From the NCBI RefSeq assembly GCF_032854445.1, contig NC_088305.1, positions 23,779,400 to 23,843,399 of the forward strand: a stretch of 64,000 nt of DNA, written 5' to 3'. Under the pieces are notes generated by a model. That model was not told the origin of the DNA, did no database searches, and saw only the letters and a list, made by a program, of their open reading frames with translations. Below are positions 6,706-60,528 of this stretch, in pieces; position 1 is the stretch's first letter, and every line of letters begins with the position of its first letter. The position numbers and the translations under genes are program-made. This stretch comes from Liolophura sinensis (Eukaryota > Mollusca > Polyplacophora > Chitonida > Chitonidae).

Positions 6706-9700
6706 GTAAGCATAGAAGAATTGAAAAACAAAATGAAAACAAAAAGGTGACTTGTTTTGTATGGTTGATATTCAATGGCGTTGTCCAGAATATTTCGCTG
6801 ATACGATGACAGTGAGGAGTAAACGACCGCCCTTCATCAAGTACCGTATAAAAGGTCTGAGTAAAAGCCTTAAGCAAACCAACGAAAGCTTGATTCGAGT
6901 CAGTGATAGCTGCATTCGGACAGGTGACCTCATTCAACTGGTACAACACTTTATTTGAATGAACGAGCAGTTCTCCTTCATTTAGTTGTAAATATATTTC
7001 TTTCATCCGGTGGTTTTCTATATATGCGAAAAATGGTACGAAAATCTAAAAAAAAATAGTACCTAAATACCACGTTTTGTAACAGTATACTAGCATGTGC
7101 CTGAAATGTTCATATTTATGCTAATATTTACTTTAATAAAGTACAAAATTCCTTCACCAATACCTAATTTATCGGATACGTCCGCTGAAAGGAAGCTTTT
7201 TCACCAGGATTGTATTAATACAAACATTCTCGGGAGATTTCTGTTTCAGTCTAATTTTATAATTTCAGCGAAGGTACAAGGAGCTTGTTTAAAATTATTC
7301 GGGATTATTTCCGGGTTTGTGTTAGATAAACCCGGTCGGGTTTGTTAGGGAGTTTACGTCCGGTATTGTTGAAAAACCAAAAAGGTTACGCAGTGTTCCT
7401 GCACAAGAAGGTGACATATATGGACAAACTTCAGTCAAATGAAGACATTTCTCATCATCCATTAAGTATTCTGCACGCACCATTTGTATCTGTAGGAATT
7501 TTACCTTAAAGTTCTGAATAAATATTGATAACCGTTTACTATAATCTCTTTAGTGACATGTAAGCTTTTGGCGAGCTAATGCCAAGAAAAGTGAAAGTTA
7601 GGACAGAGACATGGGTCTCTACAAGAGACCCCTTTAAATGCATGTGGTTATCATTTAAAGAGAAAAGTTGCGGTTTTCTTTTCTGTGACTACAAGTCTTT
7701 TCGATAAAAAAAATTATTTGATTTTTCTTTTAAAGAGGAACTTAGTTTTGAAACCCAGCTCTCTTAAGTTAACCCGTGGGACATCCTGGACAAAAATATT
7801 TTCTCTTAATGCAAAGATTATTAGCAGTTGTGACAGCATGCGAAATAAAATTTTGGTCCACAGTGGTCTGTACAAAACAAACGTAGAGCTAATTAAGAAC
7901 AACATTTCAAATGGATGTCCGTTTGTCGGTTTTTTAGTTTTACACCAGTGTGACAATAATTTCTTACACGAGCCGTTTACACATTTTTACTTGCTATTTT
8001 ACCAACGTGGGCGTATAATCACTAGAAATCTGTTTCCGCTTTTGCACCGTCTTTATCGCCTTATCGTCCATCCTCCTTCGGTGGGATCAGATGTTTGTTT
8101 TCGTCATACTATAACGTACAACGGCTCATTCTTTCTTGAAAAATCCCGATTCCCCTCCCCTTCCTTACACAGATAGAACACTCAACTATAGATGAGAGAC
8201 TATTGGGCGCTTAACATTTGTCTTGTTTTAATATTACAGTATCAGGACTTCGATATGACACCTTCTTGAACCAAACCATTGCTGTTTGCCCCGGTGCGAG
8301 TTGTGAAGGCCAATGTTACGTTCTGCGCGAGGCCGAGGACACGTGCCATTGTGACGCCATCTGTGAAATGTATGGAGACTGCTGCTATGACTACTGGTCC
8401 ACGTGCAAAAATGAGACTCTCGAAATCTCGCGCGAGAAGTCGATGCCGCAAGACAGACTTGTGTGCCGAACCATTGGAGGTCCTCACTGCCATGTGTCCA
8501 TCAAAATGATCGCCGCTTGTCCGTCGTTCTTCGACCTGACTTTGGTAAGCAAACGTTGTGAAACATTCAGCTTGGGTTACATGGCTCCCGTGTACGGAAA
8601 ACGAGGCTATATTTACGCTAACAAATACTGCGCTCAGTGTCATGGAGAAACGTCACATGACCTCGTGAAACTACCAGCTTCCTTGGAATGTCCAGACGAT
8701 CCACTAATATCCCGCATTTTGCAGAACCTAACGGTTGACGACGAAGACAGTTGGCTAACGTTGCAAATTAAGTGCTATTACAACGTCAGTCTGCCGACGT
8801 CACTTGAGCATTACATCCGATACTGCAGCCAGATGAGAATCTACGACAACCCGTGTCACTATCGTCCGGGAGTCTTCCAGTCCCAAGAGCAGTACGAAAT
8901 GCTTTATAGAGCGTGTAACACTTATCAAGGCTTCCTTTCGATCCAGTACAAAGACATCAACCATCACACTTCCTATTACTGGCGAGATCACAAGAACAGC
9001 CACTGTGCTATGTGTACAAAAGTACTTAGCACAAAACTTAACACGAGTTGTCCGACCACGAGAAGCCGAGTTAAGCGGCAACAGTGCTTGACAGGGCCTG
9101 GCTCCGTTCACGCTCCCAGTTTCACAATTTTGTTGGACTTCGACAACGACTTCAGCACGGAGCTAGTTGAAAGCATTAGATCGTGCCCGACAGGGCATAC
9201 CTACGACCCTATCTTAGCTATCTGCAGACCCATAAAATGTTCCCAAGGCTATCGTTTTCTGGATGCCAAGTGCGTTCGTGACAAAGGACTAAGGGATTCT
9301 ATGATCACAATACTATCGGCTGATTTCAAATCAACTTCAAGCAAGGACTATCCCTTGCCCAAAAAGCTTATCGCTGATCTGTTTGACAATATTGGGTCAC
9401 CGGACAACTTCACTTACGACCAGAATATTTCTGGAAATATAAGCAAAGTAACGGGACATTACAGAGCAATGAGAGATGAATCCATTTTTAGAAGTACCAA
9501 TAAAGGGCTGCTGTTTTGTGAAATGATTGCGAACCAATCAAAGGCCCTCGGAATCCACGAGCCCGAATCAGTCTCCATCCAGTGTAACATTTACTTACAT
9601 TACGAAGATGATCCAGAGAATTGCTTCAAAGAAACTGCTAAACACGCTATATTCAATGATACTTCAGTCAAGGGGCTCTACTATTCTTCCGTAATGGACA

Positions 9701-10860
9701 GTTTGGAAGATGAAGACTCCCTTATCCATGTGTCCGTCAGTCTAACAGAAACATTTGTCGGGGGGTCTTTTAAGCTGTCTGGAAAGCTATCAACCACCCA
9801 ATGTAGCTTACCGTTACTGACCTGCCCTTTGATTGAGGTCGCTAAAACCCTTGTCGCGTCCCACAATTCGACACACCTACTGCTTCACACGGGCGAATTC
9901 TACAAAGGTGCCAATTTCAAGATCATGGAGAACAAGACGTATCTCTGTACAGAAATCGTGGACAATTTTACGGAAATCACACAGCCAATGTTTACTCTTC
10001 AGATCGGAGAGAACATCGTGCATTATTACATGACGGTCGTGGGGCTGGGTCTCTCTATAGCGGGATTGGCGTTGACGCTGATTGTTTATGTGACTCTCGA
10101 AAAGCTTAGAACGGTTCCTGGAAAAATCCTGATGAACCTCACTCTGTCGTTACTGTTAGCTCAGTTTTTCTTTGCGTTCGGGACCGGCAAAATGGCATGG
10201 CCGAACTTTTGTACCGCTAACGCTGTCCTGGAGCATTACCTCTGGCTGGTGTCATTTTTTTGGATGAACGTCATATCTTTGGACTTGGCCAAAACGTTCA
10301 TGTCGTCCAGTTTGCTGTCTCACGACGACAGAGGGCGTTCGTTACTGGCAGTTTACTCAGTCTACAGCTGGGGACTTCCGTTTTTGAAAGTCACAGCTTG
10401 TTTTCTCCTGGACATTCTGGACGTTGTTCCCGATAATCAGCTCAAGTACGCTTCAATTAGAGCGTGTTTCTTATCAGGATACAATGGCATGCTGTACGCT
10501 TTTGTCCTCCCGCTTACCGTAATCATGGTTGTGAATATCATCTGTTTCATTGGCGTTCTCCTTATGTTGACCAAAGCATCGTCTTTGGAGAAGAAAATCC
10601 AGAAAAACAGAATCAAGCGAAACCAACACTTCCTCTTGGCAAAACTTCTGCCAATCACCGGCTTAACTTGGACGTTTGGTGTTGTGGCCACCTTCAGCAA
10701 AATTACGTTTCTTTGGAATCCATTCATAATTCTCAACTCTCTTCAAGGCGTGTTCGTGTTTTGTGCCTTTGTCTTAAATAGCCGTGTGAAACGAATGTTG
10801 AAGGCAAAACTGAGCCAGATTTCTCAAGAAGCTACTGGAACATCTAACACACGCTTCTGA
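6642..10860 (+). CDS. Somatomedin-B, methuselah-like family-B 7TM receptor (two exons)
   Basis: Exons 6642-6705 and 8240-10860 join in phase 1 into an 894-residue protein. Residues 1-21 look like a signal peptide (hydrophobic core LVLIT..WLYF). Residues 43-77 form a somatomedin-B domain with all eight cysteines in the C-x3-C-x9-C-x-C-x3-C-x5-CC-x6-C pattern, including CDAIC and GDCC. A long cysteine-rich, N-glycosylated ectodomain follows, with two 'N-K-Y/H-C-A-x-C' type blocks. From about residue 614 to 870 there are seven membrane segments of the secretin/methuselah type; typical landmarks are FFWMNVISLDLAKTF (TM3), TGLTWTFG (TM6) and NSLQGVFVF (TM7). No GPS autoproteolysis site is seen before TM1, which fits methuselah-like receptors rather than classical adhesion GPCRs. 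It should act at the cell surface through G proteins; the ligand is unknown. Mollusc genomes often hold many such genes, so no orthologue name is given. Confidence 0.92.
6706..8239 (+). other. Receptor intron 1
   Basis: 1534-bp intron with donor GTAAGC and acceptor TTTTAATATTACAG. It holds an unidentified 163-codon open frame at 7685-8176 with no flanking splice sites of its own and no recognisable motif. No transposon was recognised in it. Confidence 0.8.
8240..10860 (+). CDS. Receptor exon 2 (ectodomain and whole 7TM)
   Basis: 2621 nt, ending in TGA. The somatomedin-B domain, the entire ectodomain, all seven membrane segments and the short cytoplasmic tail are encoded without an intron. 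The frame can be read back to an ATG at 8218, but that ATG lies before the AG acceptor at 8238-8239, so it is intronic; the protein start belongs to exon 1. Confidence 0.93.
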
Positions 10861-17070: not shown

Positions 17071-20000
17071 GTTTGTTCTGGGTTTAAACTTTGATTGTAG
17101 GCATGAATACTATCTTTATGGATCACCACGTTTGAAAATTCCAGCTGCTGTCGTGTTTAGATGCGTGTACAAAGCAGTGATTGAGTTGTTAAAGGCTTTC
17201 GATTTCGTATACTGCAACAACAACGCCAGTGCAAGGCCACGAGTACTCCATTTGTGCATGATCCTTGGTCATTGTTTCAGGTCTCTACGTACATAAGTAA
17301 CTCTGCTCCAATCCACCTTGTACCATAACTATCCCGCACCTTTTTATATATTTTTACACATCTAAATAGCGAACATGTGTAGAGCCCTGGCCTAATGAAT
17401 TAGACCCGTGGGTCCGTTCCTAGCTCAGGATGACATCGCTCATAGGGCCTCGTTTAGTCATGGCTGGGTCCCCTTTGACCCGGTATTATGAATTGTAAAA
17501 TTTCGGAAAACTGTCGATTACTAACGAACCTCGCCCATCCAGTCACTCCTTTACAATGCTTAGGGTCCTAGGGCACTAGACTAGGTCAGGTCTATCTTCA
17601 ACAATCTCTGGTATTTACTTGCTTCAAAGTCTTCCATTTTGCAAGACACTCTGACTATGTGGAACGAAGTGGGCCTTGAAATCCAATACAAAATAGCCCA
17701 AGATTGCTCTGATGTTAGGTTTGGAAAAATTTTGTTCAGCCAAGGATTGCCCCAAACCAACGTCAGAGTGGGCTCCATTTAAAAACCTTCTGTTGTAGGT
17801 TGCTGACCTGAAGAAAGAATTAAAAGAACGTGGTCTACCATGTTCTGGAAACAAAACAGAATTGATAGAGCGATTACAGGCTCATCTTGAAGCTGATACA
17901 GAAGACCTGTCCATAGGAGACACAACCATTGGACTGAACGACACTGATCCAGGTATGAATATGGTGCATCCCATTTTATACTTGGGTTGTAATCTGCATA
18001 ACATTTGCCTCCGTTTCATTGGGAATATTGTAAATAAGTCGTAAAGTTGAATATTTGCGTTTAATGATATCTTGCCAAGATTACTATTCGTTTCAAAGTT
18101 ACATTTTCATTCTAGACTTAAATGATAAATGGAAAAATTCTGTTTTTCTTTCACAGCAGTTTCTGACACAAAGTTGGATATGAGTGAGTGACAGTTATCA
18201 TTTGGTGGAGGAAGGTGCTTTTGTAGCAAGTCTCTTAACCATTCACTTCTCTGTGCACTAGCAAATTTAAGACCACAGTACCTCATGATTGTCAATATTG
18301 GTGTCTTAACTGCATCTTCATGATATTTGTGTTACTTTCAGCAGCAAGCTCTTCTGTCTCTGGCAACCAGTAACCTGTCAATGAAAGTTCATACCTGTCA
18401 TATTGATATACTCTGTCTGTGTAACAATCATAGCCTGGCCAAGTGGATTAGCATGCTAGTTTAGCGCGATGACCCAGTAGCCTCCCACCAATTTGGCCGT
18501 TGTGAGTTCAAGTCCAGCTCGTGTTGGCTTCCTCTCTGGCTATGTGAGGGAAGGTCTAGCTGCAACCTGCAGATGGTTGTAGGTTTCCACTTTTCTCTGC
18601 CCTGGTTCCTCCCGCTATAATGCTGGCCACAGTTGTATAAGTGAAATGTTCTGGAGTACAATGTAAAAGAAATATCAAGTAAATAATTACATTATAAATT
18701 AATCATAGAAAAACTCATTATACCTAAGCTCTCTAATCCAGTATCAGTGCTGCACTGAAATAGGATCCTGACATTAAATGTGAGTACAGTATGTGTAAGT
18801 CTACATCTGTCCAGGCACCTGCCTATACAGATGTACAGGTAACTCTTGACAAGCAAGAAACCAGTGAACATTTGCATTGAACAACATAAGCACTAATTTT
18901 CTTTGGCCATTTATGGCATGCTGATAATGTCAGCATGAAGTGATTAAGATTTTAACTAACATGATTAAGAATCTTGAAAAGACATTAGTGACCCCAAAAG
19001 CCTACAGTGCTGCTCCATAATAATAATATATCTGGCATGGATATGGGTCTGGATATCCATGTAGGAAGGGTGTGATATTGGAGGAAGATGTTCATATAAT
19101 ATGCCGATCACACGGCCAAGATGGGTATATCGCATCCACTTATGATTGACGTAGGATCTGAAATCATCCACATAGGTTTTACAACATACATGTACACTTT
19201 CAATCACGCATCAACTCATTTAATTTAGAACAAAAGCTACGATGTTGGACACCAACTTCTCGAAATGAAAAAATATTCACAAAGCGAAAGGTATAGTGCC
19301 TGGTTTGGTTATTCATTCAAATATATTATTATGATAATTAGCTGGTTGCATTTTGACTGTTTCCGCAATTATTCGGCAAATGCAAAAGCAAAACCTACAA
19401 TTTGTGTATTTTATATATGTAAAATATGTACTTTAAGGTATAAATGATGTACTTCATTATAGCAGAGAACTCTGAGGAGAACTACTTCTAAATGTATCAC
19501 AGTGTTATCCTTTTTTATTGCATGTTTTGTCCTGTAAGACAAGGCAAACCTGGCAAAACGTCTTGAAAGAACAAACTTTGAAGTTTAAAAAAAGTAGTTT
19601 CAAGTTTCTTGAAGACTTGTTTGTGGATTAGTCATGTTTGTAAGGTTTGAAAACTTACACATAGATTACACTCGTGTACACATAGATTACACTCGTGTAC
19701 ACATAGATTACACTCATGCACATATAAATGACACTCATGCACACACAGATTACACTCATGCACACATATATTACACTCATGTACACATAGATTACACTCA
19801 TGCACACATAAATGTAAATCACAGTGGTCATGTTATAGTGTTATCCTCTCTTTGCACGGACGGCTATAGAAGGATGCCCTAATTTTCAACGGCCTATGTC
19901 TCCAATATGTTGAAACATTCTGTGAGAACTGTGGGGTGTAATTGTAAAAAATAATTTGCACCGTTTTACGAAGCTTGCATGTTTAATGTTTTTTAAACAG

Positions 20001-23000
20001 AAAGAAATCATTTTTAGTCTCATTTTCATTATAATTATATGCATTCCACTGAAAACATACATGTAGCTTTAGTAGTTGAAAAGGTTGAAGACTTGCAGTA
20101 AGTCATGTATGGGTTATCATGATGTCAAAATAATGTCTGGTGTCGGGTGTCTTTAGCATGACTTTTCTGTGAGGCAGCACAATACAAAGGCTTTAAGGCA
20201 TGACATATACATTAGTACAAGACCACACTGTCTTGTATTATTGTTATTATTTCAAAGAAAGAAACCTAAAGTACAAAGGTGCGTGTTCCTTTATAACAAG
20301 ATGTGGCCTAGGGTGCATTTATTCATATTACCCACAGGAAAGGTGGCATACAGCTGATTTGAATTGTGAAGCCCGCTTTCAAAAACTTAACTACCATCTG
20401 ATAAGTGAAATTTTTCTTAGCCTTGCATTGAACGCCTGTTGAATTAATAATTAAAATAAATCATGCAGTGAAGCCTGTGGTTTGTTACACATGTATAGAT
20501 TTTTGTACTAGCTGCTAAGAAACCCCCCACAATTATAGCAGAGGAGCTGGGCAGTTAATTCTCAATTACGAGAAATGAATGATATCACTATATGTTGCTT
20601 TCAAAGTAAAGTTTTGGAGAAGCGTTCCATTGATCATGAAAAAAACTGACGACACCATAGACTTTAATAGCTTCTTTATTGTCCTGTTATTTTTTTTTTC
20701 AGTCAGTATTAAAATATTAAAGGCCATTTATCTTTTACTTTCAGGTATAGATGATTCCCTACTTCATGAAGAGACCACAGATGTAAGCTTGACTTCCGTA
20801 CACCTGTAGTAGCACCCACATTGTTACAAATATAGAGATACATGAAGACCTTTATGTACTGTGACTGGAAATGTTAGATCTTCACGACATAGAAAACAAA
20901 GTGTCACAGTAAATGCCAGATTTGTACCAGTCCAAAATCCAATAGTTCCAGGTTCAGTGCCTAGCTGTCTATTTCTCAGTGTGAAAAAAATTAACTGAGG
21001 GACAAAACCAGTCGTCTGTCATCCATGGAGAGGTTCTAAAATGCAAATCTCTAGTTTGCTCTGTTCCCATTGCTGTAAAATGACCTGGAAATTGTGTCTC
21101 AAACATGCCAGTTTAGTCAGGTAGTAAATTAAAGGGAAATCCCAGGAGATTTCTGTCGATGGATTTTAATCGATGGTAAGGCCAAAAAATTGATCCGACT
21201 AACAGACATCTGGACTTTGCCTGTTGCAGATTTTGTTTTCAAAGGCCGGCTAAATGCCATCATTATAATAGATTGTTTTGGAGTAGATGTAATTTATTAT
21301 TCCATCATTATTTGTTTTCAGGTACAAAATAAAGCCGCCATCCCTGCCAGTAACACACAAACCACAAGTGTAGTCACAGAGAAACCTGTCCGGGCGAAAA
21401 TCACTATGTCTGATGAACCGTAAGTGATGCCAGGCCAATGGAGCAAGCCTTGGCCTTGTGGCTAAGATGTTTGTCTTTCAGTTGGCCTGCACTTTGATGG
21501 GGAATTTGTATTGCTCTGTCTTAACTGTTGCAGTGCCTTAAGGTATGATGAACCGTAAGTGATGCCAGGCCATTGAAGCAAACCTTGGCCTTGTGGCTAA
21601 GATGCTTGTCTTTCAGTTGGCCTGCACTTTGATGGGGAATATGTATTGCTCTGTCTTAACTGTTGCAGTGCCTTAAGGTCTGATGAACCGTAAGTGATGT
21701 CAGGCCAATGAAGCAAGCCTTGGCCTTGTGGCTAAGATGTTTGTCTTTCAGTTGGCCTGCACTTTGATGGGGAATTTGTATTGCTCTGTCTTAACTGTTG
21801 CAGTGCCTTAAGGTATGATGAACCGTAAGTGATGCCAGGCCATTGAAGCAAACTGTAGCCTTGTGGCTAAGATGCTTGTCTTTCATTTGGCCTGCACTTT
21901 GATGGGGAATTTGTATTGCTCTGTCTTAACTGTTGCAGTGCCTTAAGGTCTGATGAACCGTAAGTGATGCCAGGCCATTTAACCAAGCTGTGGCCTTGTG
22001 GCTAAGATGCTTGTCTTTCAGTTGGCCTGCACTTTGATGGGGAATTTATATTGCTCTGTCTTAACTGTTGCAGTGCCTTAAGGTCTGATGAACCGTAAGT
22101 GATGCCAGGCCATTGAAACAAGCTTTAGCTTTGTGGCTAAGATGCTTGTCTTTCATTTGGCCTGCACTTTGATGGGGAATTTGTATTGCTCTGTCTTAAC
22201 TGTTGCAGTGCCTTAAGGTCTGATGAACCGTAAGTGATGTCAGGCCATTGAACCAAGCTGTGGCCTTGTGGCTAAGATGCTTGTCTTTCAGTTGGCCTGC
22301 ACTTTGATGGGGAATTTATATTGCTCTGTCTTAACTGTTGCAGTGCCTTAAGGTCTGATGAACCGTAAGTGATGTCAGGCCATTGAAACAAGCTTTAGCT
22401 TTGTGGCTAAGATGCTTGTCTTTCAGTTGGCCTGCACTTTGATGGGGAATATGTATTGCTCCATCCTAACTGTTGCAGTGCCTTAAGGATGCCAGGCCAA
22501 TGGAGCAAACTGTGGCCTTGTGGCGAAGATGTTTGTTTTTCAGTTGGGCTTCACTTTGATGGGGAATTTGTATTGCTCCGTTCTAACGGTTGCATTGCCT
22601 TAATTCATATTCCTTTATATTTATATCATATATTCGTGAGTCTGTGGCCTAGACCCCCATTTCCTTCACCCAGAACCAACACATAGGAATAGTTGACAGG
22701 TGAAATTTTCTTGAACAAAATGTAGGCGTTACTAGATCTTCAATCAGATACCTTCATTGATAATAAAGTTATATTATGGTGTAGTTGATTTAAATTATAA
22801 GCCAACTTCAAATGACAGGGCACGATGGCTCAGTTGGTAGAGCGTCCGCTTTGGGGGTAGATCCTGGGTCGGGTCACACCAAAGACCTTAAAAGAGGAAG
22901 TAGTAGCTTACTCGCTTGGCGTTCAGCGTTAAGGGGATAGTGCAACAACTGGTTGACTCGTATCAGTATAATGGCTCGAGTGGGGCGGTTTACTTGCGTT

Positions 23001-26000
23001 CGGTAAGTGTTTTTAGTAAGTCTTTTCAGCGAAGCAGCACTAGGTAAAAGTGAGGTGGAAAAGCATCCTGCAGCAAGGAGGCACATTACATGTATATGCA
23101 CTGTTAAGGACTCCTTCATCATCATATGACTGAAAAATTGTTAAGTACAACATTAAACCCTATGCTCTCACTCACTCACTCAAATGCCTTGACTGTTGTC
23201 ATGTTATACGTGGTGGGTGTGATCTAATTGAAGTTAGGTACATACGTCCGTCAGGCACCATATGATTTGTCTAACTTGGCCATATTCCATTGTTGACCGG
23301 CCCGGATAGCACAGTTGGTAGAGCGTCCGCTTCCGGACAGGTAGATCCAGTATCAAGCCTTGATCGAGTCACACCTAAGACTTTAAAAGAGGAAGTTGTA
23401 ACTTCCTCGCTTGGCGTTCAGCATGAAGGGGATAGTGCAACGACTGGTTGACCCGTATCAGTATAATGGCATGGGCGGGGCGGCTTACTTGTCTTCGGTA
23501 AGTCGTCTCAGCGAAGCAGCACTAGATAAAAGAGCAGTGGAAATCCGTCCTGCTACAAGGAGACACATTACAGGTACATGTACCCTAAGGATTCCTTCAT
23601 CATCATATGACTGAAAAATTGTATAGTACGACGTTAAACCCCAAGCACTCACTCAATCACTCCATATTCCATTGAAATAACGTTTATTAAAATTTCTGAT
23701 AGTATATGCATGTGAATTTCTGAATTTAAAGCTAAATTTCAGTGCTTCAGCTGCCATGACAGTACATTGAAGGCACACATGTATATAGGTCTTTGTTATA
23801 TGCCTTGGTTATGGGCCTACGTGCACGGCATCCATCTTGAGCAAGATGTGACCTTGATGTGCAGGTTTATAAACAGTGCTCAACTGCATACATACACCAC
23901 ATGACGTGCGTAGTATTGTGAAAAGGCCTCTCATGTGAGGGATACACATATATTTTGGCATATATAGCTACAGCACAGCTTTGCCTCATCGCCAGACAGA
24001 GTATGCTGATATAGTATTATGTTGTTGTTGCAGTGCCTACATGCTTCACGTGCGCCACTTCTGTTTTATAAATTAGTTTCTTAATCGGTTATATTAATAC
24101 TGACTGAGGTATGCGAGGGAAGAGTATATGAAAAGGATCTAGACACAACTGAAACCAAGACAAAAATCGGTGGTTTTGTCTTTTAAATAAGTAAAAGATT
24201 ATATCCTTGCATGTCGTTGAAGTCACGGCTGATCTAGTGTATGTATTTTGTGTTTGGAAGTACTTCGAGGCCAGGGTTTCATATGTCGTCATTGTCGGCT
24301 TATTTCAGGAAGGGAACAGCAAATGGACATGAGACCACGGCAAAGAAGCAGCTGTCAGATGCAGAGGTTTGTAGTCTTCTGGTCATTATTGTCACTTCAT
24401 TTTAGTTCACCAGCACCTTGCAATGAGCTTGTATCAAGGAATTTAACAGTGAATATATAGATTTGGCTAATCTCACTTTTCTTGAGGCTTTGGTGACAGT
24501 ATGCAACAAATGCCTGTTTGTGCAGTCTAACACTCATTAAAAATACCACTGGTTTTCCCACCAATAAAAGATATAAAAAAGCCCACCCATCTAAAAATAA
24601 AAAAACAATCTAGAGTGTGGCATTAAACAAGAATCAGATAATTAAGAGGAAGAACAAGAGCCATAGCTAGTCGTACTAATGGGTTTGATCACCACCCTGC
24701 CACCTCCCCCCCCCACTCTCCACACTTCCAAAATAAAAATTTGATATAGGTAAATTTACATTTTCGCTCACTAAGATTACTGTAATCAGCGACTGATTGA
24801 TGAGATCGCAGTTTAGAATACTAATCTCGCTTGCTTGGTAGCAGCTTAAAGTTACGGGGATTAACAGGTATCTGGCGATGGGTGGTCATTTTTGACACTG
24901 TGGTAAGTGAATAAATGTGCAGTTGGTTGGAGTATCATCTGGAAATAAGATATTGAAGTGTATGCTATGCATAGGTTTTGTGCTGTTGGCACAATCTGTG
25001 CTTTCATAACTTCCAGTGTGAATCGGCTTTGCGACAACCGTTGTAGAGTCAACAGTCTTCATATTTTCTCTGCGTGTTACAGAAGCTGAAGCTACGGACG
25101 GATCGATTTGGTGTCCAGTCAGAGGCTGACAAGAAGAAATCCAGAGCAGAACGGTATGTGTACGTGGTATAAGAGTACATGGACATTCTGAGTAAATACC
25201 TGCTAGGTTGGGTGAGTCCAGTGTAAACCCCACGTCGTGGCCCTTGTGCTCTGCCTTACTCTTCGTGTCCCTTGGGCTTCGTGTCCCTTGTGCTCTGCCT
25301 TGCTCTGTGTCCCTTGTGCTCTGCCTTGCTCTTCGTGTCCCTTGTGCTCTGCCTTGCTCTTTGTGTCCCTTCTGCTCTGCCTTGCTCTTCGTGTCCCTTG
25401 TGCTCTGCCTTGCTCTTTGTGTCCCTTGTGCTCTGCCTTGTTGTTCGTGTCCCTTGTGCTCAGCCTTGCTCTTCGTGTCCCTTGTGCTCTGCCTTGCTCT
25501 TCGTGTCCCTTGTGCTTTGCCTTGCTCTGCGTGGACACATAAGCAGATCACTGAACTGTAGAATAATAATATTGTTCTTTTCTGATATATCCCCTTATAT
25601 ATTTCTTTTTATTCCATGCTTCCATGAGAGCAAGGGATGTTAAATTAATTTGAGTTCTTTCTGCCAGTCTTTTGTTTTGGTGAAAACTGCTACAAGTATT
25701 CTCTGATTCTGACAAAATGCTGCTGGTTCAGGTTATACAGGCTCAGATCAAGTTGGAAAACCAACTGGATCAAAGAAAAAGGCTCAGGGAGCTCTGTTTA
25801 TATTACAGAGGTGTTTTGAGATTTATTTGGAAGGCACAAATGCTTTGTAAGAGTATGAATTGACCTCCAAAAACGCACTCCTTGGCTGAAATATATGTAG
25901 GTCAATGGCACTACAGTATGTGCACTATATATGCTGTAATTCTTCAACCTTTTTGAATGTTTGCAAGCTGTTTATTCAAGCATATTCTGAAGGCATTTTT

Positions 26001-29000
26001 CTGAGTAGACTGATAAAATTATACTTTTTGTGAAGCCCTGAAATTGGCTAACCCAACCAAAGTAGTTTTGTCTCAGAAATCAAATTAAAAATGTGTATAA
26101 ATTGCTCTGAAAGTTGCTGTTTCTTATGCTAAAAGGTTGAGGAATAAGAGTACATATGTGTACCATAATTCTTTTAAAATATATCTACATCCTATTGCTT
26201 TCAGATTTGGCCTTTCAACCACAACAACAACAACAACAGCAGGCGCTACACAAAAACCAGGGAAGATTGTGAACACACCTGTCACAGTATGTACCTAATG
26301 AGAAAGTATTTATGATTCTGTTAAAGCAAATCTGAAAACCCTTATGCTGGGAGCAGTACATTGTCAATTTGCTTGAGCTGCTGTGGCTTTCACTGGCTAC
26401 ATTTAGGACACATGAGATGTGGGTTCAAAACTGAATATGAACAGGGAATTTGTAGATTTTCCAGCTTTCACTGTTCATGAAACCTTGGTGACAATAAGTG
26501 CTGGGCAACACTTCAGTGGAGGCGAAACTCATGGAAGACCACTTGTCTTCCATCAACACATTGTGCGTATCTGAAGGACAAACTTGGGAATGTTCCTCAG
26601 TAATTTGCCAAGGGTCTGTGGTTTACCTCGAGCTGTCCAGTTTTCTTCTACCATAAACTGACCATCATTGCACAAATGAACAATTTTTGAGTGTGGCATT
26701 GAATTTAGAATGGTACTTTGTTTTGATTTATTTATTTATTTCATTGGTGTTTTACACCGTACTCAAGAATATTTCACTTATACGACGGCGGCCAGCATTA
26801 TGGTGGGAGGAAACCGGGCAGAGCCTGGGGAAAACCCACAACCATCCGCAGGTTGCAAGGCCTTCCCACATATGGCCGGAGAGGATGTCAAGCATGAGCT
26901 GGACTTGAACTTACAGCAATGGCATTGGTGAGAGATTCTTGGGTCATTAGGGTGCACAAGCGCGCTAACCGACTGTGCCACGGAGGCCCCTAGAATGGTA
27001 CTTTGAGATGTGTTTGGTAGGTAGAATGATATCCTACTGGGAAAATGTAAATTTTTGCACTGAAGTAGTATCTATTGATATTTATTTGCCTCTAAAGATG
27101 CTCTTTTGTGGTCAGACTTTTGTGAAATTGTTACTGGAATTTACGATTATGAACAATACATATTTGCTCTGTCATTTTAGGCTGCTGATCTGGACAAGTT
27201 GAAAAAGAGAGCAGAAAGATTTGGTACCGTGGTGTCTACATCCTTATCCAAGGTAAGGGAACAGTTTGGAAACTTCCATGTAGCATCTGAGGGTTGAAAA
27301 GAACAGCCCTCTAGACAAGCTTGGCATAAAAAGCAACTAACATAAATTCCGTGATGGCCTGGTGAAGTTTGCTAATTGGATCTGTTCTCCAGGTAATCTT
27401 GGTGACATATAATAAGGTGTCATTTGCTAGTTGGATCTATGTCTGTTCTCCAGGCAATGTGAGTGATATTTAATAAGGTGTTATTTGCTAGTCGGATCTA
27501 TGTCTGTTCTCCAGATAATCTTGGTGACATGTAATAAGGTGTCATTTACTAGTCAGACCTGTGTCTGTTCTGCAGGTAATATGGGTGACATGTAATAAGG
27601 TGTCATTTGCTAGTCGGATCTATGTCTGTTCTCCAGGTAATCTTGGTGACATGTAATAAGGTGTCATTTGCTAGTCGGATCTATGTCTGTTCTCCAGGTA
27701 ATGTGGGTGACATTTAATAAGGTGTTATTTGCTAGTCGGATCTATGTCTGTTCTCCAGGTAATACGGGTGACATGTAATAAGGTGTTATTTGCTAGTCGG
27801 ATCTATGTTTATTCTCCAGGTCGCGGAGATTGAGAAGCTTCAGCAAAGGTCTGAGAGATTCGGAACATCAGTTGCCCCAACGTTGTCTAAGGTAAATAAA
27901 ACATTTAAGAGTAAAGACTGAACATTATTTAACTGTACGAATATGTAGTAATTGCCCTGATTGTTCAGCCTTTTCAACCTCCTCTGCAACCAATATTGTG
28001 AAACATTCTGAAAGGACTATGTTTTGCAGAGAAGGAATTTGCACAGTTTCATGAAGCTTGTTGTCTTTAATGATACAAACAAGTCACTTTTAGCATCATT
28101 TTCATAATGATTTTATTTGGTTGTAAACCGCCAAACTTTGGTCAGTTATTGATGGACCATGCATTTTGTGACATTTAGACAGGTATACCGTTTTTATGGA
28201 AGATACATGCATGTGGTCTTCAACAAACGTTATTCTGTGCAATCAGTTGACCACTTATTGACAGCTGGGAAGACCGTTATCAAAAGAGGGATATGTGGTA
28301 CTAGATAGTTTTGTCTTTCTCTAAGAAAAGATACATCTTAAGTTTTACATATTTTATCGTTCCTCACTTCTAACTTAAGTTCTTTATATATGCTTTGGGG
28401 CTGATTCCACAGAGCCATTTCTGAATTAAAAATTGAATTATGATCATCAAGCTTATTTTTCGGCTTCAGAAATTAAAATTTTGTTGCCCATGTTTAAGAT
28501 AAATCTGTCCAAATTTCTACTTCCAGAACCAAAAACTACGCATTGTAAAGATGTTTTAGATTTTCACTAAACTTAGAAATGGCTTTGTGGAATCTGGTCC
28601 CAGAGGTTGACCAAATAATACAGAACATGAAACACCATGTACCAATGTAAACTACCAATGGAATATTAAGATATTGTTCTTTAATCAGCCAAATGAACAC
28701 GCCGTATTTCAATTTACGATATGCTGGTTAGTTCACATTTTTATTTTGTTTTTGTTTTTTCGGTAATCTTTTATTTCCACCATTGACTCTTAAAAGAACA
28801 TGATACATGTACATAAATCCCATCAACCTACCCCCACCCACCCCCACCCCCCAAAAACACACACACTACTCTTACCCCTAGCCACAAGCCCACAGTCGAT
28901 CTGCTAATGAGACCCCTTGTACGATTCCTGTTCAGATAGAAGAGCAGGACAAGATAAACAAGAGGAAGGCAAGGTTTGGTGCTGTGGCGCCCTCGGGGGT

Positions 29001-31134
29001 AACAGGTACGCTGTCCTCAGATGATGTTGAGGTGAGTAGGGGTGTTAGCTTAGTTGTATTGTAGGTGCATGAAGACTGTGGGGACAGTAGATAGAAAGCA
29101 AGGCTTTGTGTGCAGCCTAGCAAAATGGTGGCCATGGAGTTGGTGATTTGTGACCATTTGCCAGCTATCACACTGTCATCACAGTGACCATTACTGTCAT
29201 CACTGCTGTGGTTTTAGTCTCTGTGCTGTTGTCTTATATATTACAAGCTTGCACGATGAGCTTGTGTCCATGAAGACGACATTGACTGTGTGCGAAATGT
29301 AGCAACTACTCCCAATTCTCACGTGTTCTCAGTGCCTGGGTTAGTGTTCACTCCAGCTGCTGTCTACTATTTTGTAAGTTTGCACACCAAGTCTCATTTT
29401 CGATTTAACAGGGTTTGACTGTGAAAAGATTACACAGCCAGGGCTTCTGCTGGTTCTCCCCATTGTCGGAAATTGCGAATGAAAATTTGGATTGGCGATA
29501 AAATCAGGGAAATGGCGAATGTTTCTGGCAATAAAATTATTTACCCAAGAATGTATACTGGCTATTGAAGAGGTGGAAATTACGACAGTGTGAAGATTTC
29601 AATGCACGTGGCCATGTGTTGTTCACTTTTCTAACGGAAATATTGGGTTGGTGAACGTCATAACAGTTTTGTATTAACCACGTGCGTTTGTTTTATTTTT
29701 TTAAGCAAACATCACATCCGTTTTTTTAAATAATTTAAAAAAAGAAAAGGTAGCAGAGTTCCGCTGGTGCTCGCCATCGTCGCAAATTTAGAACAATTTT
29801 TTGAAATGGCGGTAAAATTCAAAACTATGCGAATGTTTTTGGTGTTGGATTTATTTACAAAGAAAATGTACAAACGTTATACACAAAATACCTGGACAGT
29901 TTTCCTAGTAATTTTCAGGCATGATTTCTGTGGTTTTCTGTGGTTTTATGCGTATTTTCGCTGTTTTTCTGATAAAAACAATCCATTTACTTGTATTTCA
30001 AACGGCTTCATTTCAGCGAAACAACAACCACCTAGTCACGGCGATTTTAATTGACAGAAATCTAGAAAGAGAGTTCCGCATTCTTGGAAGTTGACTTTCA
30101 TTAGATAAGGCTTGAAAATCATTTTTGTTAACTAATGAACGAGAATCATGGCATTTTTGGGGATGCCTTTCATAGCCAAATCTAAAGAACAAAAAAATAA
30201 ATGAAACAAAGTTTGTTAAGGGAGATAAATATAGTCATTTCCTTCAAGGGAGGTAACTTCCCTTTTAACCCTTCCACCGTTGAACTAAATTTATAAATTT
30301 ATTTTGTAACAAATTCTTCTGATAGAAGAAATTGCATTTTACAAGGACCCTACACAGATTAATTGAAAAAGGGTTTGATTTTTTTCAAAAAACAAAAGCT
30401 GCCATCATTTTGAGGGCAATTGTTCTGAATGTGGCATGGGATAAACTCCAGATATAGCTGGAAGAGACCAGACTGATTCTAGTAGGTATACCAAAGCAGA
30501 TAAAACGAATTACAGATGGAGACCAGCAAGTGTCATAGATACATCTCCCATTCAGTCAGTTGAAGATCACAAAGATTAAGTCAAGGCCACTAAAAAAGTA
30601 TGGCTAAAGAAAAATTGTATTGGCTACAAAATCTGATGAGTGGTTAAAGTGACCGGCTAAAAAAAAAAATACTGACCCAGAGGAAGCCCTGTATAGCCAT
30701 GCTGGTAATGGGGTATAAGGCTGCTCATGATACAGCAAAATATACCTCACTTTGTTCTATTAAGGCAGTGGTTAGAAATCTGGCACAAAATGTTCTCACA
30801 TCTTCTTTGATTCGTCACCTAAGTAACCTCCTAATTTGATGGACATTTGATGTAAATTGGAGTGTAACATTTTGTGCTCTGGTGACATGCTGATACATGT
30901 AACTAGACAATAGCCGACAGGGACAAGTATGAAGCTTCTTCCTGGAAACAGACTTGAACTTTTGTCCTAATGAAAGATTGTGATCTCTCTGTGTGTTGTT
31001 TATGTTCATGTTTTGGGTGTTCAGGGTATGGGACAACATCTTGAAATTATCAAATGAATATTCATGACCTTGGGTATTTTTTGTACCTCCAGGCCAAGAA
31101 GAGGAAGAGGGCAGAACGATTTGGGATGCAATGA
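17026..31134 (+). CDS. SARNP: SAP-domain ribonucleoprotein, SARNP/CIP29/Tho1 family (11 exons)
   Basis: Exons 17026-17070, 17799-17952, 20745-20782, 21322-21419, 24309-24366, 25083-25153, 26205-26286, 27181-27252, 27820-27891, 28936-29031 and 31093-31134 join with consistent phases into 275 codons plus stop. Residues 6-45 are a SAP DNA/RNA-binding domain (LKVADLKKELKERGLPCSGN and following). A linker is followed by six basic modules ending in RFG: RTDRFG, SRAERFG, KRAERFG, QRSERFG, KRKARFG and KRAERFG. The protein ends in RAERFGMQ, very like the vertebrate SARNP end. In the family, SARNP works with the TREX complex in nuclear mRNA export, and its repeated RFG motifs bind the helicase DDX39B/UAP56. 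Human SARNP is about 210 residues, so this one is longer. Introns of 0.5-2.9 kb hold SINEs and three tandem arrays, two in register with splice sites. Confidence 0.9.
17799..17952 (+). CDS. SARNP: SARNP exon 2 (SAP domain)
   Basis: 154 nt, acceptor TTGTAG, donor CCAG|GTATGA. It encodes VADLKKELKERGLPCSGNK and the rest of the SAP domain (TELIERLQAHL), followed by an acidic segment. It ends in phase 1. Confidence 0.92.
18157..18183 (+). CDS. Candidate 27-nt cassette microexon in SARNP intron 2
   Basis: Strong acceptor (tttttctttcacag) and donor (GTGAGT) flank 27 nt, a multiple of three. The frame stays open between exon 2 (phase 1) and exon 3 and would insert VSDTKLDM plus one residue after the SAP domain. 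It is not counted in the 275-residue model. Splice signals and frame support it, but nothing independent does. Confidence 0.4.
   Translation, partial: QFLTQSWI
18433..18687 (+). repeat. SINE-A, full-length, diverged
   Basis: tRNA-like head ('ggccaagtggattagcatgc', then B box GAGTTCAAGTCC), SINE-A body ('ggcttcctctctggctatg', 'cataatgctggcc' type block) and 3' end 'aagtgaaatgttctggagta'. It is in SARNP intron 2, in the gene's orientation. Confidence 0.88.
19656..19812. repeat. Tandem array, 21-bp unit, about 7 copies
   Basis: The unit is 'cacatagattacactcgtgt' plus one base, with variants ending 'catgca'. Being 21 bp, it reads open as IDYTHAH-like repeats, but it lies in SARNP intron 2 and no splice sites frame it. 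Confidence 0.88.
20745..20782 (+). CDS. SARNP: SARNP exon 3
   Basis: 38 nt, acceptor ttttactttcag, donor GAT|GTAAGC. It encodes an acidic linker (IDDSLLHEETTD) and takes the frame from phase 1 to phase 0. Confidence 0.75.
21322..21419 (+). CDS. SARNP: SARNP exon 4
   Basis: 98 nt, acceptor tttgttttcag, donor CC|GTAAGT. It encodes a Thr/Ser-rich linker ending KPVRAKITMSDEP, matching the family's pre-module segment. It ends in phase 2. Its last 11 bases and donor are the start of the 135-bp tandem array that follows. Confidence 0.85.
21409..22600 (+). repeat. 135-bp tandem array starting on the exon 4 splice donor
   Basis: About nine units. The motif 'tctgatgaaccgtaagtg' (or 'tatgatgaacc') recurs with its donor G at 21420 (the real one), 21555, 21690, 21825, 21960, 22095, 22230 and 22365, exactly 135 bp apart. 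The ninth unit has lost this motif and the last part is diverged. Each unit also has two acceptor-like sites, 'tgtctttca(g/t)' and 'cttaactgttgcag', the second 21 bp before the next donor. Copies are about 95% alike, which suggests recent expansion. Confidence 0.93.
22815..23180 (+). repeat. SINE-B, full-length
   Basis: tRNA-like head 'gatggctcagttggtagagc', B-box region 'gggtcgggtcac', the 'gcttggcgttcagcgt' core, and a (CTCA)n end. A possible 7-bp target duplication TCAAATG lies at 22808-22814 and 23180-23186. It is in SARNP intron 4. Confidence 0.88.
23293..23661 (+). repeat. SINE-B, full-length, with target-site duplication
   Basis: Same structure as the copy 480 bp upstream, with head 'ggcccggatagcacagttgg' and a 'cactcactcaatcact' end. 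It is flanked by a perfect 13-bp duplication CCATATTCCATTG at 23280-23292 and 23662-23674, so it inserted by retrotransposition on its own rather than by duplication of its neighbour. Confidence 0.93.
24309..24366 (+). CDS. SARNP: SARNP exon 5
   Basis: 58 nt, acceptor cttatttcag, donor GCAGAG|GTTTGT. It completes the split proline codon from exon 4 and encodes KGTANGHETTAKKQLSDAE, a polar linker. It ends in phase 0. Confidence 0.82.
25083..25153 (+). CDS. SARNP: SARNP exon 6 (first RFG module)
   Basis: 71 nt, acceptor cgtgttacag, donor CG|GTATGT. It encodes KLKLRTDRFGVQSEADKKKS and RAE; the arginine codon of the second module is split over the junction with exon 7 (phase 2). Confidence 0.88.
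25248..25535. repeat. Tandem array, about 28-bp unit, about 10 copies
   Basis: The unit is around 'cttgtgctctgccttgctct' and 'tcgtgtccc'. It begins 95 bp after SARNP exon 6, within intron 6. The 28-bp period puts successive units in different frames, so three plus-strand frames and two minus-strand frames stay open for 100-220 codons. It is not a gene. Confidence 0.93.
26205..26286 (+). CDS. SARNP: SARNP exon 7 (second RFG module end, poly-Thr)
   Basis: 82 nt, acceptor cctattgctttcag, donor ACA|GTATGT. It completes RAER-FG, then encodes six consecutive threonines from an (ACA)n run and the linker AGATQKPGKIVNTPVT. The triplet run could vary in length between individuals. Confidence 0.87.
26721..26990 (-). 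repeat. SINE-A, full-length, with target-site duplication
   Basis: Complete minus-strand copy from the (TTTA)n end to the head (rc of 'ggggcctccgtggcac'). It is flanked by a perfect 15-bp duplication TAGAATGGTACTTTG at 26706-26720 and 26991-27005. It is in SARNP intron 7, antisense to the gene. Confidence 0.95.
27181..27252 (+). CDS. SARNP: SARNP exon 8 (third RFG module)
   Basis: 72 nt, phase 0 to 0, acceptor tgtcattttag, donor AAG|GTAAGG. It encodes AADLDKLKKRAERFG and TVVSTSLSK. Length and phase equal those of exon 9. Confidence 0.92.
27393..27819 (+). repeat. 61-bp tandem array ending on the exon 9 splice acceptor
   Basis: Units of exactly 61 bp; the AG of 'ctgttctccag' (or a variant) ends at 27392, 27453, 27514, 27575, 27636, 27697, 27758 and finally 27819, the true exon 9 acceptor. 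After the earlier copies comes GTAAT (five times), GCAAT or ATAAT, so five junctions read CAG|GTAAT, an acceptor fused to a donor. The array fills most of the 567-bp intron 8. Confidence 0.93.
27820..27891 (+). CDS. SARNP: SARNP exon 9 (fourth RFG module)
   Basis: 72 nt, phase 0 to 0, acceptor tattctccag, donor AAG|GTAAAT. It encodes VAEIEKLQQRSERFG and TSVAPTLSK. It aligns residue for residue with exon 8, consistent with exon duplication. Confidence 0.92.
28936..29031 (+). CDS. SARNP: SARNP exon 10 (fifth RFG module)
   Basis: 96 nt, acceptor attcctgttcag, donor GAG|GTGAGT. It encodes IEEQDKINKRKARFG, then AVAPSGVTGTLSSDDVE. An internal CAG|GTACG could serve as an alternative donor, but the full exon keeps the frame into exon 11. 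Confidence 0.9.
31093..31134 (+). CDS. SARNP: SARNP exon 11 (sixth RFG module, stop)
   Basis: 42 nt, acceptor ttgtacctccag, ending CAATGA. It encodes AKKRKRAERFGMQ and the stop. This C-terminus is the most characteristic family match. Confidence 0.93.
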   Translation, partial: AKKRKRAERFGMQ

Positions 31135-54290: not shown

Positions 54291-56660
54291 CTTCCACTCA
54301 CACCCCACTAGTGTGGAGCCTCACTGAGTCGCAAGCCTCATGATGGCTTCTTCCGTTTTAATATCTTTCGTGAGATCACGCGTGTCAGGAAAAGTCTGCT
54401 CTTCAGTGAAATTCTGGGCTTGCCCACCGCTCTGTTGTTCAGCGAACTTCCTGCTAATTTCTATATGTGCATAGACGACTCTGGTTAATAATACAGATAC
54501 TATGTGTACCCAGCGCAGCGGACAAAATGCACTGTCACGTGCAAGTCAGATTCGCTGTAACCATAAGACAATTAGGTGTGAAGTTTATCACATGGGAATG
54601 GGTGTAGACATAACTAGCTATGTTGGTGTTGAGCTAACATAAAGACTAAAGTTTGAATTGAATATATGTTTACTGTGTGGTTATAGTATATACTTATTGT
54701 TGTATGGTTATAGTATATGTTTATTGTTGTATGGTTATGGTATATGTTTATCGTTGTATGGTTATAGTATATGTTTATTGTTGTGTGGTTATAGTATATG
54801 TTTATTGGTGAATGGCTATGGTGTATGATTATGGTATATCAGAAAGGCTATTAAATTGTACTGAAAGCTGTTTAGGGACCACAGTTTAAACATCCAACTG
54901 AAAATTTAAAAATGACTTCAGACATCCTATTTAAAATTGTGTTTAAAAGTGTGTTAACTGTCATGCGCGAGATTATCCAGTACATCGTACGACCTGAGTG
55001 AGTTATAACTGTAGGTATATGGAGGTACCCATGCATACTTAGCAATACATATACCAGCTAAGAGCTGTGTAGTTGTTGACTGCTGGTGCTTGCAGTCCAG
55101 ACATGAATAATTAAAGCTGAGAGCGCTTTTGTAGTCATGTATGCGCATATATCTGTACTATAACGGTCAAATGTCAAGTTTTAAATATTAACCGTCTGTT
55201 TAACCAAAATAGCTAGAGAGGAAGATGCATGCATTGTTATGTGTGTGAAATATTTTCATGTCAGCACCTGTATGTTTGAGATAGGACTATTTCAGGCCAT
55301 CTAGACCTTATCAGTGGTAGATATATACATGTATATGTACTTATAAATTTATAGGCCTATGTATTTGTCTCTATGTATGTGCGTACGTGTGTCCGTGATA
55401 CAGGCGAATCCTGCCGGGCGAGGTTATCACCAGCCTTTGTATAGGTACACTGGAACTTGCAGTGGATCTGTGGCATGCGCATGTATGCCTATAGATGTTG
55501 TGTAGAAGATATACCCCGCCGAGTGTGTGGTTTATTATGGTACAGACCCGGACACTTGTAAACACTGTGTGATGAATATGCGTAGGACTTCAACAATCGC
55601 GAGCAATATGTAAACTACATGTGTGTAGGACTACAGCATAACGAACAGGACGCGCGTGCGAAGTGTATGTAGGCCTATTACCGGTGAAAAAGCACATGTA
55701 ACTGTGCAATTAAGTCCGGGATGCGCAGGAAGGTTGATTTGATATACATACAAAGTAAAATCATTGGAGACGGCTTAACTATCTGCGGACTTCATACCAG
55801 CTCTGCCAGGTTTAAAAAGAGGATTATTAAATTGTTGACAACAACGGACGAACCTCAAACTCCATCGTGAACCTAACAATCGAGACGCAATACTTCCGCG
55901 TACTCGATGTTACATGTATATATATATTTTACATGCATACACACGCTGTTGAATTATCCCGTCCCTCCTAAGGGCAATGAATGTATATATAGCGTGCCTG
56001 TCTCCGTCAGAATTTGATTGGATTTCAAAGCACATGGCACAGGTGACTGCTATGTATTTTATAGGCACATCTACATGTTAGTCAGTTAGGGCGTAAAGGC
56101 ATACTGTAGGACAACGTGTGGTGTTTGCGGCGTCCAGTGAGAATACCTTATATGTAATAAGGACAGCGGGAATAAGGGACGGACTTTGAAACAGTCTTGT
56201 GTTGGGAACCGATTAACCGTGACTCTGTGGTTCCGGAACAACTCAGTCCACACAGCTGTGGTGACAAAAAGAGCGAGAGAATCAGTCAAAAAGAAAGACG
56301 GGTGAAATGTATTTATGAATGTATAGCATTGTCGTGAGTGTAGAAGTCTACGTACACTGTAGCCTATAGTTTGCATACAGGCGGAGTTTGTATAGCATTT
56401 GTAGCTTACAATGTTGTCAGTAAAGACGACCACCTAGACCAAAGTTCATGCGGGTCGCTGGGAAGGCACTCCTTCCTCTATCAAACTGTACTTATTCTCT
56501 ACCAAACTATACGTGTTCTGACGTAATCGCTTCAAGAAATGTCCATCATGTCTTACAAAAGCCAAAAAGTTCAGGCCTTACCCTTTATCTCTGACGGTTT
56601 ACCTTAAGGTCTTCTCAAGTAGTTTGCTGTCTTTCCTGTGCGGCCGGCGACTGGGTGACC
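54291..56660. other. Intergenic DNA with one short tandem repeat
   Basis: At 54660-54850 a 27-bp unit ('gtatggttatagtatatg' plus 'tttattgtt') occurs about six times. No coding exon is seen in the rest, although a TATA-like stretch is present near 55983. Confidence 0.5.
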
Positions 56661-56664
56661 CACC

Positions 56665-56673
56665 TATTTATAA
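56665..56673 (+). promoter_or_regulatory. TATA box of a possible fourth gene
   Basis: TATTTATAA, in a locally GC-richer segment. About 80 bp later comes a good splice donor (AACAG|GTGAGT at 56751/56752). The layout fits a promoter and a short first exon. Confidence 0.35.
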
Positions 56674-56694
56674 TCAGCCACACCTCCACGCAGG

Positions 56695-56751
56695 GACTGA
56701 CGCGCGGAGGATTTACAGGTAGTCGCTGAGAAGACTACAGAGTTGTAACAG
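56695..56751 (+). other. Possible untranslated first exon
   Basis: About 57 nt between the expected transcription start and the donor AACAG|GTGAGT; no ATG in it. No downstream coding exon was found in the window, so the gene, if real, continues to the right or has short exons I could not recognise. Confidence 0.25.
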
Positions 56752-56924
56752 GTGAGTGCTAACGATCTCTTCAGACTACGGAGGTATAAATCTTTGTGAA
56801 TTGTTACTGTGCGTGGTGAATTTGCTATTCGGATTCCCACACTGATTTTCATGTTAATTCATATCGGACTTTCACTTTCATGTTACTCTGGTGTAAGGCA
56901 AAAACGCTGCTGTGTGGAGGAGAC

Positions 56925-57160
56925 AGGACAGGGGTGGGCAGCCTGGCGTCACCGATTTCGGTATAATGTCCCTGGTTGGGGTGTCATGTCTGGCGTGTTC
57001 GGTATCATAATTCAGTACCGCCAGCGCTTTGGCAGCACGATACTGCCACAAGCAGACACAGTATGTACATATGTACACACACACCTAAGGACTCGTCGTC
57101 ATCATCTCGCTGAAAACTTGTTAAACATGACGTTAAACCCCAAGCATACATGCATACGTA
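56925..57160 (+). repeat. SINE-D
   Basis: 'ataatgtccctggttggggt', 'gtcatgtctggcgtgttcgg' and 'gacgttaaaccccaagcata' match the SINE-D body and end; the head is missing. Confidence 0.78.
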
Positions 57161-57299
57161 CATACTTGCCATAGTAATAATATTTTCTACATAACTTATA
57201 TGTAGTTGTAACACAATTTACATGACGTACCACTGTCACAGAAAGCAAGATGTGTCTAATGAAGTGTGGTTCGCAATCACAGAAGTTAAGCGGAACATG

Positions 57300-59960: not shown

Positions 59961-60528
59961 AGTACCGAGGGAATATTATGTTTTACGGAGAGAGGTAGGA
60001 ATAAGGAAAGGACTATTTCTCGCGGAGGTACAATACCTATGGAATAATTGTAAATATGTTCAGTAGTGAATATGTCCATTACTGACAGTTTATCATACTT
60101 GTGTATTCCCTCTCGAATGTGTTTACGTGGGTTAGCCGGCCCAGGGCACTTAACCGTGAACTGTCAATGTCACTCTGGGGTCAGGCGGATCGGGTTGCTA
60201 CCTGAAGGATGCAGGGTAGCCCGGCATTGTTAGTTTAGCACTAACGCATGTATTTCCCTGTAAGAAAAATAAAATACAGCGTGGAGAGTAAACCAGAACG
60301 GGGATGACGGTATGACAGTTGGCAAATAATCGCACGCATTCGGTGCAATTCGACCATTTGTCATCTTACCTCAATTTTATTCAAACTGTTCATATAAATA
60401 CTTAATTAATGTAAACTTATACAGCCCCACCCCCAGCTCCATGGCTTAAACAGAATTAAGTTCAAAATGTAATGCTGTTTGTTACATTTTTCTAGACGTC
60501 GATGTTCTAGAATTACTCTTGGTACTGT
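59961..60528. other. Spacer between array and SINE cluster
   Basis: No gene or repeat family recognised. Confidence 0.4.

Follow-up and report, generated by a model that had tools for sequence, protein, structure and literature searches.

Minisatellites that extend across an exon-intron boundary are known from amphioxus as mirages, and two reports place them in Adh3 and in the globin genes BflGb6 and BflGb9 (PMC3087553), with PGBD5 and troponin C added to the set (PMC3902484). Their units range from 10 to about 160 bp, the copies contain AG or GT, and the arrays combine a homogenised centre with diverged edges; reverse transcription-polymerase chain reaction (RT-PCR) is said to show regular splicing undisturbed (PMC3087553, PMC3902484). 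For human internal tandem repeats, De Grassi and Ciccarelli (2009) state that minisatellite expansions reaching exon-intron boundaries can form novel introns (PMC2812944). The subject of the present analysis is an array in a SARNP-like gene of the chiton Liolophura sinensis, located in a stretch of 64,000 nucleotides (assembly GCF_032854445.1, contig NC_088305.1, positions 23,779,400 to 23,843,399, forward strand) that is called the window here and numbered from its first letter. From the array, the frames and scores of its copies and the recurrence of similar arrays at other exon ends, we infer, with a probability of roughly 0.8, that this is a boundary-spanning minisatellite of the mirage kind that is largely neutral and leaves the exon-proximal donor in normal use.

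The SARNP gene and its 135-bp array

The predicted gene is called SARNP on the strength of a Pfam search of its protein, which matched the SAP domain (E 2.8e-13) and Tho1_MOS11_C (E 3.6e-17); a PDB search of the protein contributed the SAP domain only. Its coding exons run from 17799 to 31134 on the + strand, a span in which exon 1 was not located, and the exon numbers used below (4 and 5) are those of the original prediction. Exon 4 (21322 to 21419, + strand, 98 nt) is an open phase-0 frame between tttcag and gtaagt, and its expected partner, exon 5 (24309 to 24366, + strand), has a tttcag acceptor and a compatible phase. A frame check of the 21419-24309 junction shows that exon 4 reads into exon 5 without any array copy. 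Domains, frames and repeat positions all agree with the gene, exon, phase and array geometry that had been proposed. Whole-genome searches were run against the contigs of the assembly to which the window belongs (609,464,459 bases, 632 contigs), and with a hand-assembled 260-aa protein as query they returned no second SARNP locus. Of the ten matches with E<=1, eight fall on exons of the SARNP locus itself, and the other two have only weak E values (0.25 and 0.77). The search thus revealed no processed copy, and a retrocopy recording spliced microexons was rejected as a candidate.

Tandem Repeats Finder (TRF) reports the array at 21408-22488 with a period of 135, 8.0 copies and 94% match, and an extra row with a period of 117 bp extends to 22603. 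Eight 135-bp units occupy 21408 to 22487 on the + strand, each made up of a 12-nt exon tail, a donor and an intronic part. The first begins 12 nt inside exon 4, its exonic portion being the final 12 nt of that exon, and the repeats thus span the exon-intron boundary. The string GAACC|GTAAGTGATG occurs eight times, with GT at 21420 + 135k (k=0..7) and every step exactly 135. These positions confirm the proposal that the donor ACC|GTAAGT is multiplied seven extra times at 135-bp steps, starting inside exon 4: the authentic donor lies at 21420 to 21425 (+ strand; score 4.53), and its copies at 21555, 21690, 21825, 21960, 22095, 22230 and 22365. Being copies of the real exon-4 donor, the extra GTAAGT sites are not due to chance. 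There are seven occurrences of the acceptor-like string CTTAACTGTTGCAG and, at 22465, a variant with CCTAAC. Eight of nine units hold the donor; the diverged 117-bp end unit (22488 to 22604, + strand) has neither exon tail nor donor, and GCAT replaces GCAG in it.

The whole array matched no other place in the genome, and all nine matches of a single-unit search, in which very common words are skipped, lay inside the array. On the matches from these searches, a dispersed element was rejected. Introners are repeated units with a donor and an acceptor that are dispersed in many genes; the SARNP unit resembles them in holding both sites and differs from them in being found only in its own array. 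A structured RNA such as an intronic small nucleolar RNA was likewise discarded as a candidate, the 64-kb window having no Rfam match at gathering scores.

Among the eight units 18 of 135 columns vary, and all units are distinct, with 2 to 12 pairwise differences. Units 1 and 3, like units 5 and 7, differ at only 2 of 135 positions. Divergence is greatest in the end unit, which over 117 positions differs from the other eight at 13 to 19. The central units are thus homogenised and the edge unit diverged, as in amphioxus mirages, and the combination of edge divergence with near-identical pairs is typical of tandem-repeat turnover. The same differences bear on the concern that the copy number, or the array as such, is an artefact of assembly. 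Mis-assembly of tandem arrays can occur, and the genome report gives a coverage of 14x for the 609.5-Mb assembly of 632 scaffolds (PMC11068029); a correction changed the species name in it from Liolophura japonica to L. sinensis (PMC12441733). Against this, the eight units all differ, the mean HiFi read of 8,347 bp spans the 1.2-kb array (PMC11068029), and similar arrays stand at other exon ends of the genome, all of which makes an artefact scarcely credible.

In the mechanism that we favour for the mirage-like array, exon 4 would have contributed its final 12 nt and its donor to a tandem duplication that also took in the start of intron 4. Slippage or unequal exchange would then have multiplied the resulting 135-bp unit, to some extent probably two units at a time. 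The end unit may record an earlier stage, in which an intronic segment of 117/118 bp was duplicated at a microhomology of TAA before the 135-bp duplication took place; a deletion of 18 bp within the end unit fits as well. The splice sites in the copies would be passengers or decoys. Normal splicing would run from the exon-proximal donor (21420) to the acceptor of exon 5 (24309), the proximal donor being chosen because it closes the normal 98-nt exon, where downstream donors would lengthen the exon into TAA.

Set beside the amphioxus mirages, the SARNP array is alike in that its repeats span an exon-intron boundary, its copies hold AG or GT and its edge unit is diverged. It is unlike them in that the host is a mollusc and not a cephalochordate, that the array is known from sequence alone, that several unrelated genes of this genome are involved (16 of 383 sampled sites lie in arrays) and that seven SARNP units hold a frame-keeping pseudo-exon. 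With the human repeats it shares a minisatellite at an exon-intron boundary; those lie in recent primate paralogues and often form a coding repeat (PMC2812944), whereas the present array lies in an intron of the only SARNP locus found.

Candidate products of the repeated splice sites

A TTGCAG acceptor-like site had been proposed 21 nt before the next donor, and seven such segments are present. The first pseudo-exon spans 21534 to 21554 on the + strand, and six more follow at steps of 135, the last at 22344-22364. All seven are in phase and free of stops, and their translations, ALRSDEP in five and ALRYDEP in two (n=0 and n=2), bear out the seven codons and S/Y variants originally described. 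Splicing to TTTCAG would instead give a 73-nt poison pseudo-exon with an in-frame TGA (21482 to 21554, + strand; others begin at 21617, 21752, 22022 and 22292), each reading ...WPAL-stop; seven of these had been suggested as possible, but only five of the seven units have one, TTTCAT standing in the units that start at 21813 and 22083. If splicing used one of the seven downstream donors, or if the intron were retained, the reading frame would run immediately into CCG-TAA, and the products would end after ...MSDEP. The original prediction overlooked a second class of donor, formed where units meet, namely AAG|GTATGA in two units (21543 to 21548, also 21813; + strand) and AAG|GTCTGA in five (21678, 21948, 22083, 22218 and 22353; + strand). 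Both outscore ACC|GTAAGT, and in one unit a junction donor combined with the pseudo-exon acceptor was seen to give a 9-nt frame-keeping exon. Products from decoy sites would mostly be stopped early. If the 21-nt or 9-nt segments were included at a low level, the harmless-looking residues that they add to a linker could escape notice.

Site strength was scored with a weight matrix trained on splice sites that had been inferred in this genome's chaperonin and myosin genes (113 donors, 112 acceptors), and the resulting percentiles are rough because the training sites were chosen partly by score. The pseudo-exon acceptor scores 7.24, the 19th percentile of inferred genomic acceptors, and the TTTCAG sites fall between the 21st and 34th percentiles. 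The ACC|GTAAGT donors, the authentic one of exon 4 included, score 4.53 (8th percentile), and the junction donors stand at the 48th (AAG|GTATGA) and 24th (AAG|GTCTGA). Low percentiles within the range of real sites suggest that the array sites could work but are not strong.

These sites would acquire a function if the array were a splicing device that places variable ALR(S/Y)DEP heptads in some transcripts, tunes the SARNP level through 73-nt poison exons, or does both. Such a role is consistent with seven open, in-phase 21-nt exons that each have an acceptor and a donor, with five poison exons, with site scores in the real range and with a donor-to-next-acceptor spacing of 114 nt, a plausible length for a small intron. 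RNA factors often regulate themselves via poison exons, and SARNP is a member of the mRNA export machinery. The arrangement can also arise by chance: among 2000 dinucleotide shuffles of the intronic part, at least one acceptor as good as that of the pseudo-exon appears in 32%, a frame-keeping one in 12% and one that is both frame-keeping and open in 6.9%. Acceptors scoring >=7 occur at 1.74 per kb per strand in window positions 31200-57000, which makes isolated decoys of such strength a common feature. The splice-relevant positions (pseudo-exon, donor and acceptor tract) vary in 4 of 45 columns, as against 14 of 90 elsewhere, which is no significant excess of conservation (P=0.21) in a comparison of low power confined to one array in one genome. 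The seven pseudo-exons are most simply read as one chance arrangement, founded once and then copied.

Further points tell against a splicing device. The CTTAAC taken for a branch site is present, but its A lies only 10 nt from the pseudo-exon, at -10, where such a motif is rare in real acceptors; upstream of the 193 inferred acceptors such motifs are themselves only weakly enriched, and for this reason only the shortness of the distance is used as evidence. TTTCAG has been lost in two of seven units, 21-nt exons are normally hard to include, and similar arrays in amphioxus are described as not disturbing regular splicing (PMC3087553, PMC3902484). A splicing device is, on this balance, unlikely. 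The proposed set of optional microexons, poison exons and competing donors stands as far as the existence of the sites goes, but the meaning implied for it exceeds evidence of this kind (6.9% of shuffles, P=0.21); the caution attached to the prediction from the start, that the sites are seen and their splicing inferred, was well placed.

The junction donors also touch on the birth of introns or exons, for which copied AG/GT boundaries could serve as raw material. AAG|GT stands at the junction in seven units, a model of this kind was proposed for amphioxus globins (PMC3087553), and human boundary repeats are reported to be able to form novel introns (PMC2812944). No fixed product is seen here, however, and the frame runs from exon 4 into exon 5 with none of the copies included. 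Birth under way is very improbable as an account of the present array; it describes a possible future of the array and not its present role.

Intron 4 also contains, downstream of the array, a pair of related interspersed repeats (22820-23660) that begin in a tRNA-like manner (ggtagagcgtccgctt) and by eye resemble short interspersed elements.

Arrays at other exon ends

A second SARNP exon is bordered by an array. A 61-bp repeat of 7.2 copies (TRF; 27381 to 27821, + strand) ends with its last unit at the acceptor of the exon at 27820 to 27891 (+ strand; VAEIEKLQQRSERFGTSVAPTLSK), which is in frame with the exon at 27181-27252. The authentic acceptor is the final copy of the array, and seven further ctccag or ctgcag acceptors precede it, AG being kept in all seven extra copies. 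The extra acceptors reach the 37th to 80th percentile and the authentic one the 84th; a frame check shows that any of the seven, if used, leads to a stop codon. In a genome search the 61-bp array was found at this single place. In five of the seven extra acceptors GTAA follows the AG directly (CAG|GTAA), which makes them similar to the zero-length sites of recursive splicing described in long introns. A 28-bp array at 25236-25535 lies in the intron that follows the exon ending at 25153; it starts some 85 nt from that exon and leaves the splice site untouched.

How often arrays meet exon ends in this genome was sampled in three gene families, with 47 of 50 chaperonin (CCT), 68 of 81 myosin-head and 80 of 118 kinesin matches giving 195 exon matches and 383 distinct inferred splice sites (190 donors, 193 acceptors); three long, apparently intronless chaperonin matches were left out, as were 13 myosin and 38 kinesin matches that were not retrieved. 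Tandem arrays with a period of 15 or more cover about 15% of both the window (9782 of 64000 bases) and the first control loci (23014 of 156953). Sixteen of the 383 sites (12 donors, 4 acceptors) lie inside arrays. An automatic rule, by which a comparable site must recur in at least half of the other array copies, counts 10 as multiplied (6 donors, 4 acceptors), and inspection adds four donors (L021, L063, L074 and L121) for a total of 14; two in-array sites look unmultiplied or misplaced (L020, and position 614 of L004, score 3.3). The kinesin set, retrieved after the first two families had been analysed, has 5 of 157 sites in arrays, two multiplied by the rule and five with inspection.

The multiplied donors belong to myosin, kinesin and chaperonin exons at L046, L063, L004, L003, L026, L021, L060, L070, L074 and L121, and the multiplied acceptors, from the same families, to L004, L028, L036 and L116; the imbalance between the two kinds (10 of 190 against 4 of 193) is not significant (P=0.11). 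Some arrays repeat more than 90 nt of exon. The last 115 nt of the L046 myosin exon (562-1192) recur with the donor in a 124-bp array of 5.1 copies, about 37 exonic nt are repeated at the L063 kinesin exon, and the number of extra splice-site copies reaches 17 at L021. The extra donors equal the original in L004, L026 and L046, mostly equal it in L003 and L060, exceed it in L070 and are all or mostly weaker in L063, L121, L021 and L074, a range that shows no uniform decay. Among the multiplied control donors, a decent acceptor before each extra donor was seen only in L004, where it defines a 32-nt pseudo-exon that is not frame-keeping.

Arrays are rarer beside splice sites than deeper in introns, both for donors (12 of 190 at +3 against 28 of 184 at +300) and for acceptors (4 of 193 against 24 of 182). 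Random founding of arrays predicts about 5.7 multiplied sites among the 383 when arrays near exons are counted, and 4.0 when those are left out. With 10 to 14 seen against about 5.7, arrays at boundaries are no rarer than random founding would lead one to expect, the excess having P=0.066 for 10 sites and P=0.0024 for 14.

Several observations weigh against a largely neutral SARNP array with a normally used proximal donor. The excess at 14 sites may mean that boundaries are preferred founding places and not merely tolerated ones. The scores of the pseudo-exon acceptor and of the donors fall among those of real sites, so some use of the pseudo-exons may occur, and the junction donor AAG|GTATGA scores above the authentic exon-4 donor. 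Use of the proximal donor is deduced from the DNA and not from RNA, and the splice sites of the control genes were all inferred by score and frame.

If boundary arrays are as frequent as the sample suggests, an extrapolation to the whole genome that rests on three gene families, chitons would hold many natural duplicated-splice-site experiments and would carry the mirage phenomenon of amphioxus into molluscs. In rows of identical donors or acceptors, position is nearly the sole cue to the right site. Duplicated splice-site constructs were reportedly used by Reed and Maniatis in 1986 for studying splice-site choice; the chiton arrays are alike in offering identical competing sites that differ mainly in position, and unlike in being natural and genomic. 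A bolder version, in which chiton boundary arrays are very many and set identical-site competitions, and the SARNP array delivers a copy-number-dependent dose of seven-residue inserts and poison exons that varies among individuals, seems to us decidedly improbable. Public RNA-seq could measure the fidelity of proximal-site choice, the use of decoys against copy number and the birth of exons or introns from arrays; the genome report lists such data for five tissues (SAMN35319765 to SAMN35319769; PMC11068029). A literature search turned up no description of arrays of this kind in any chiton, an absence that counts for little.

Other features of the window

An open frame of 881 aa at 8215-10857, with Somatomedin_B and 7tm_2 domains, looks like a single-exon gene for a secretin-type or adhesion-like receptor. 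Long tandem arrays occupy 57335-59937 and 62162-63174, the first of them overlapping a strong GC skew (0.507 in 56001-60000).
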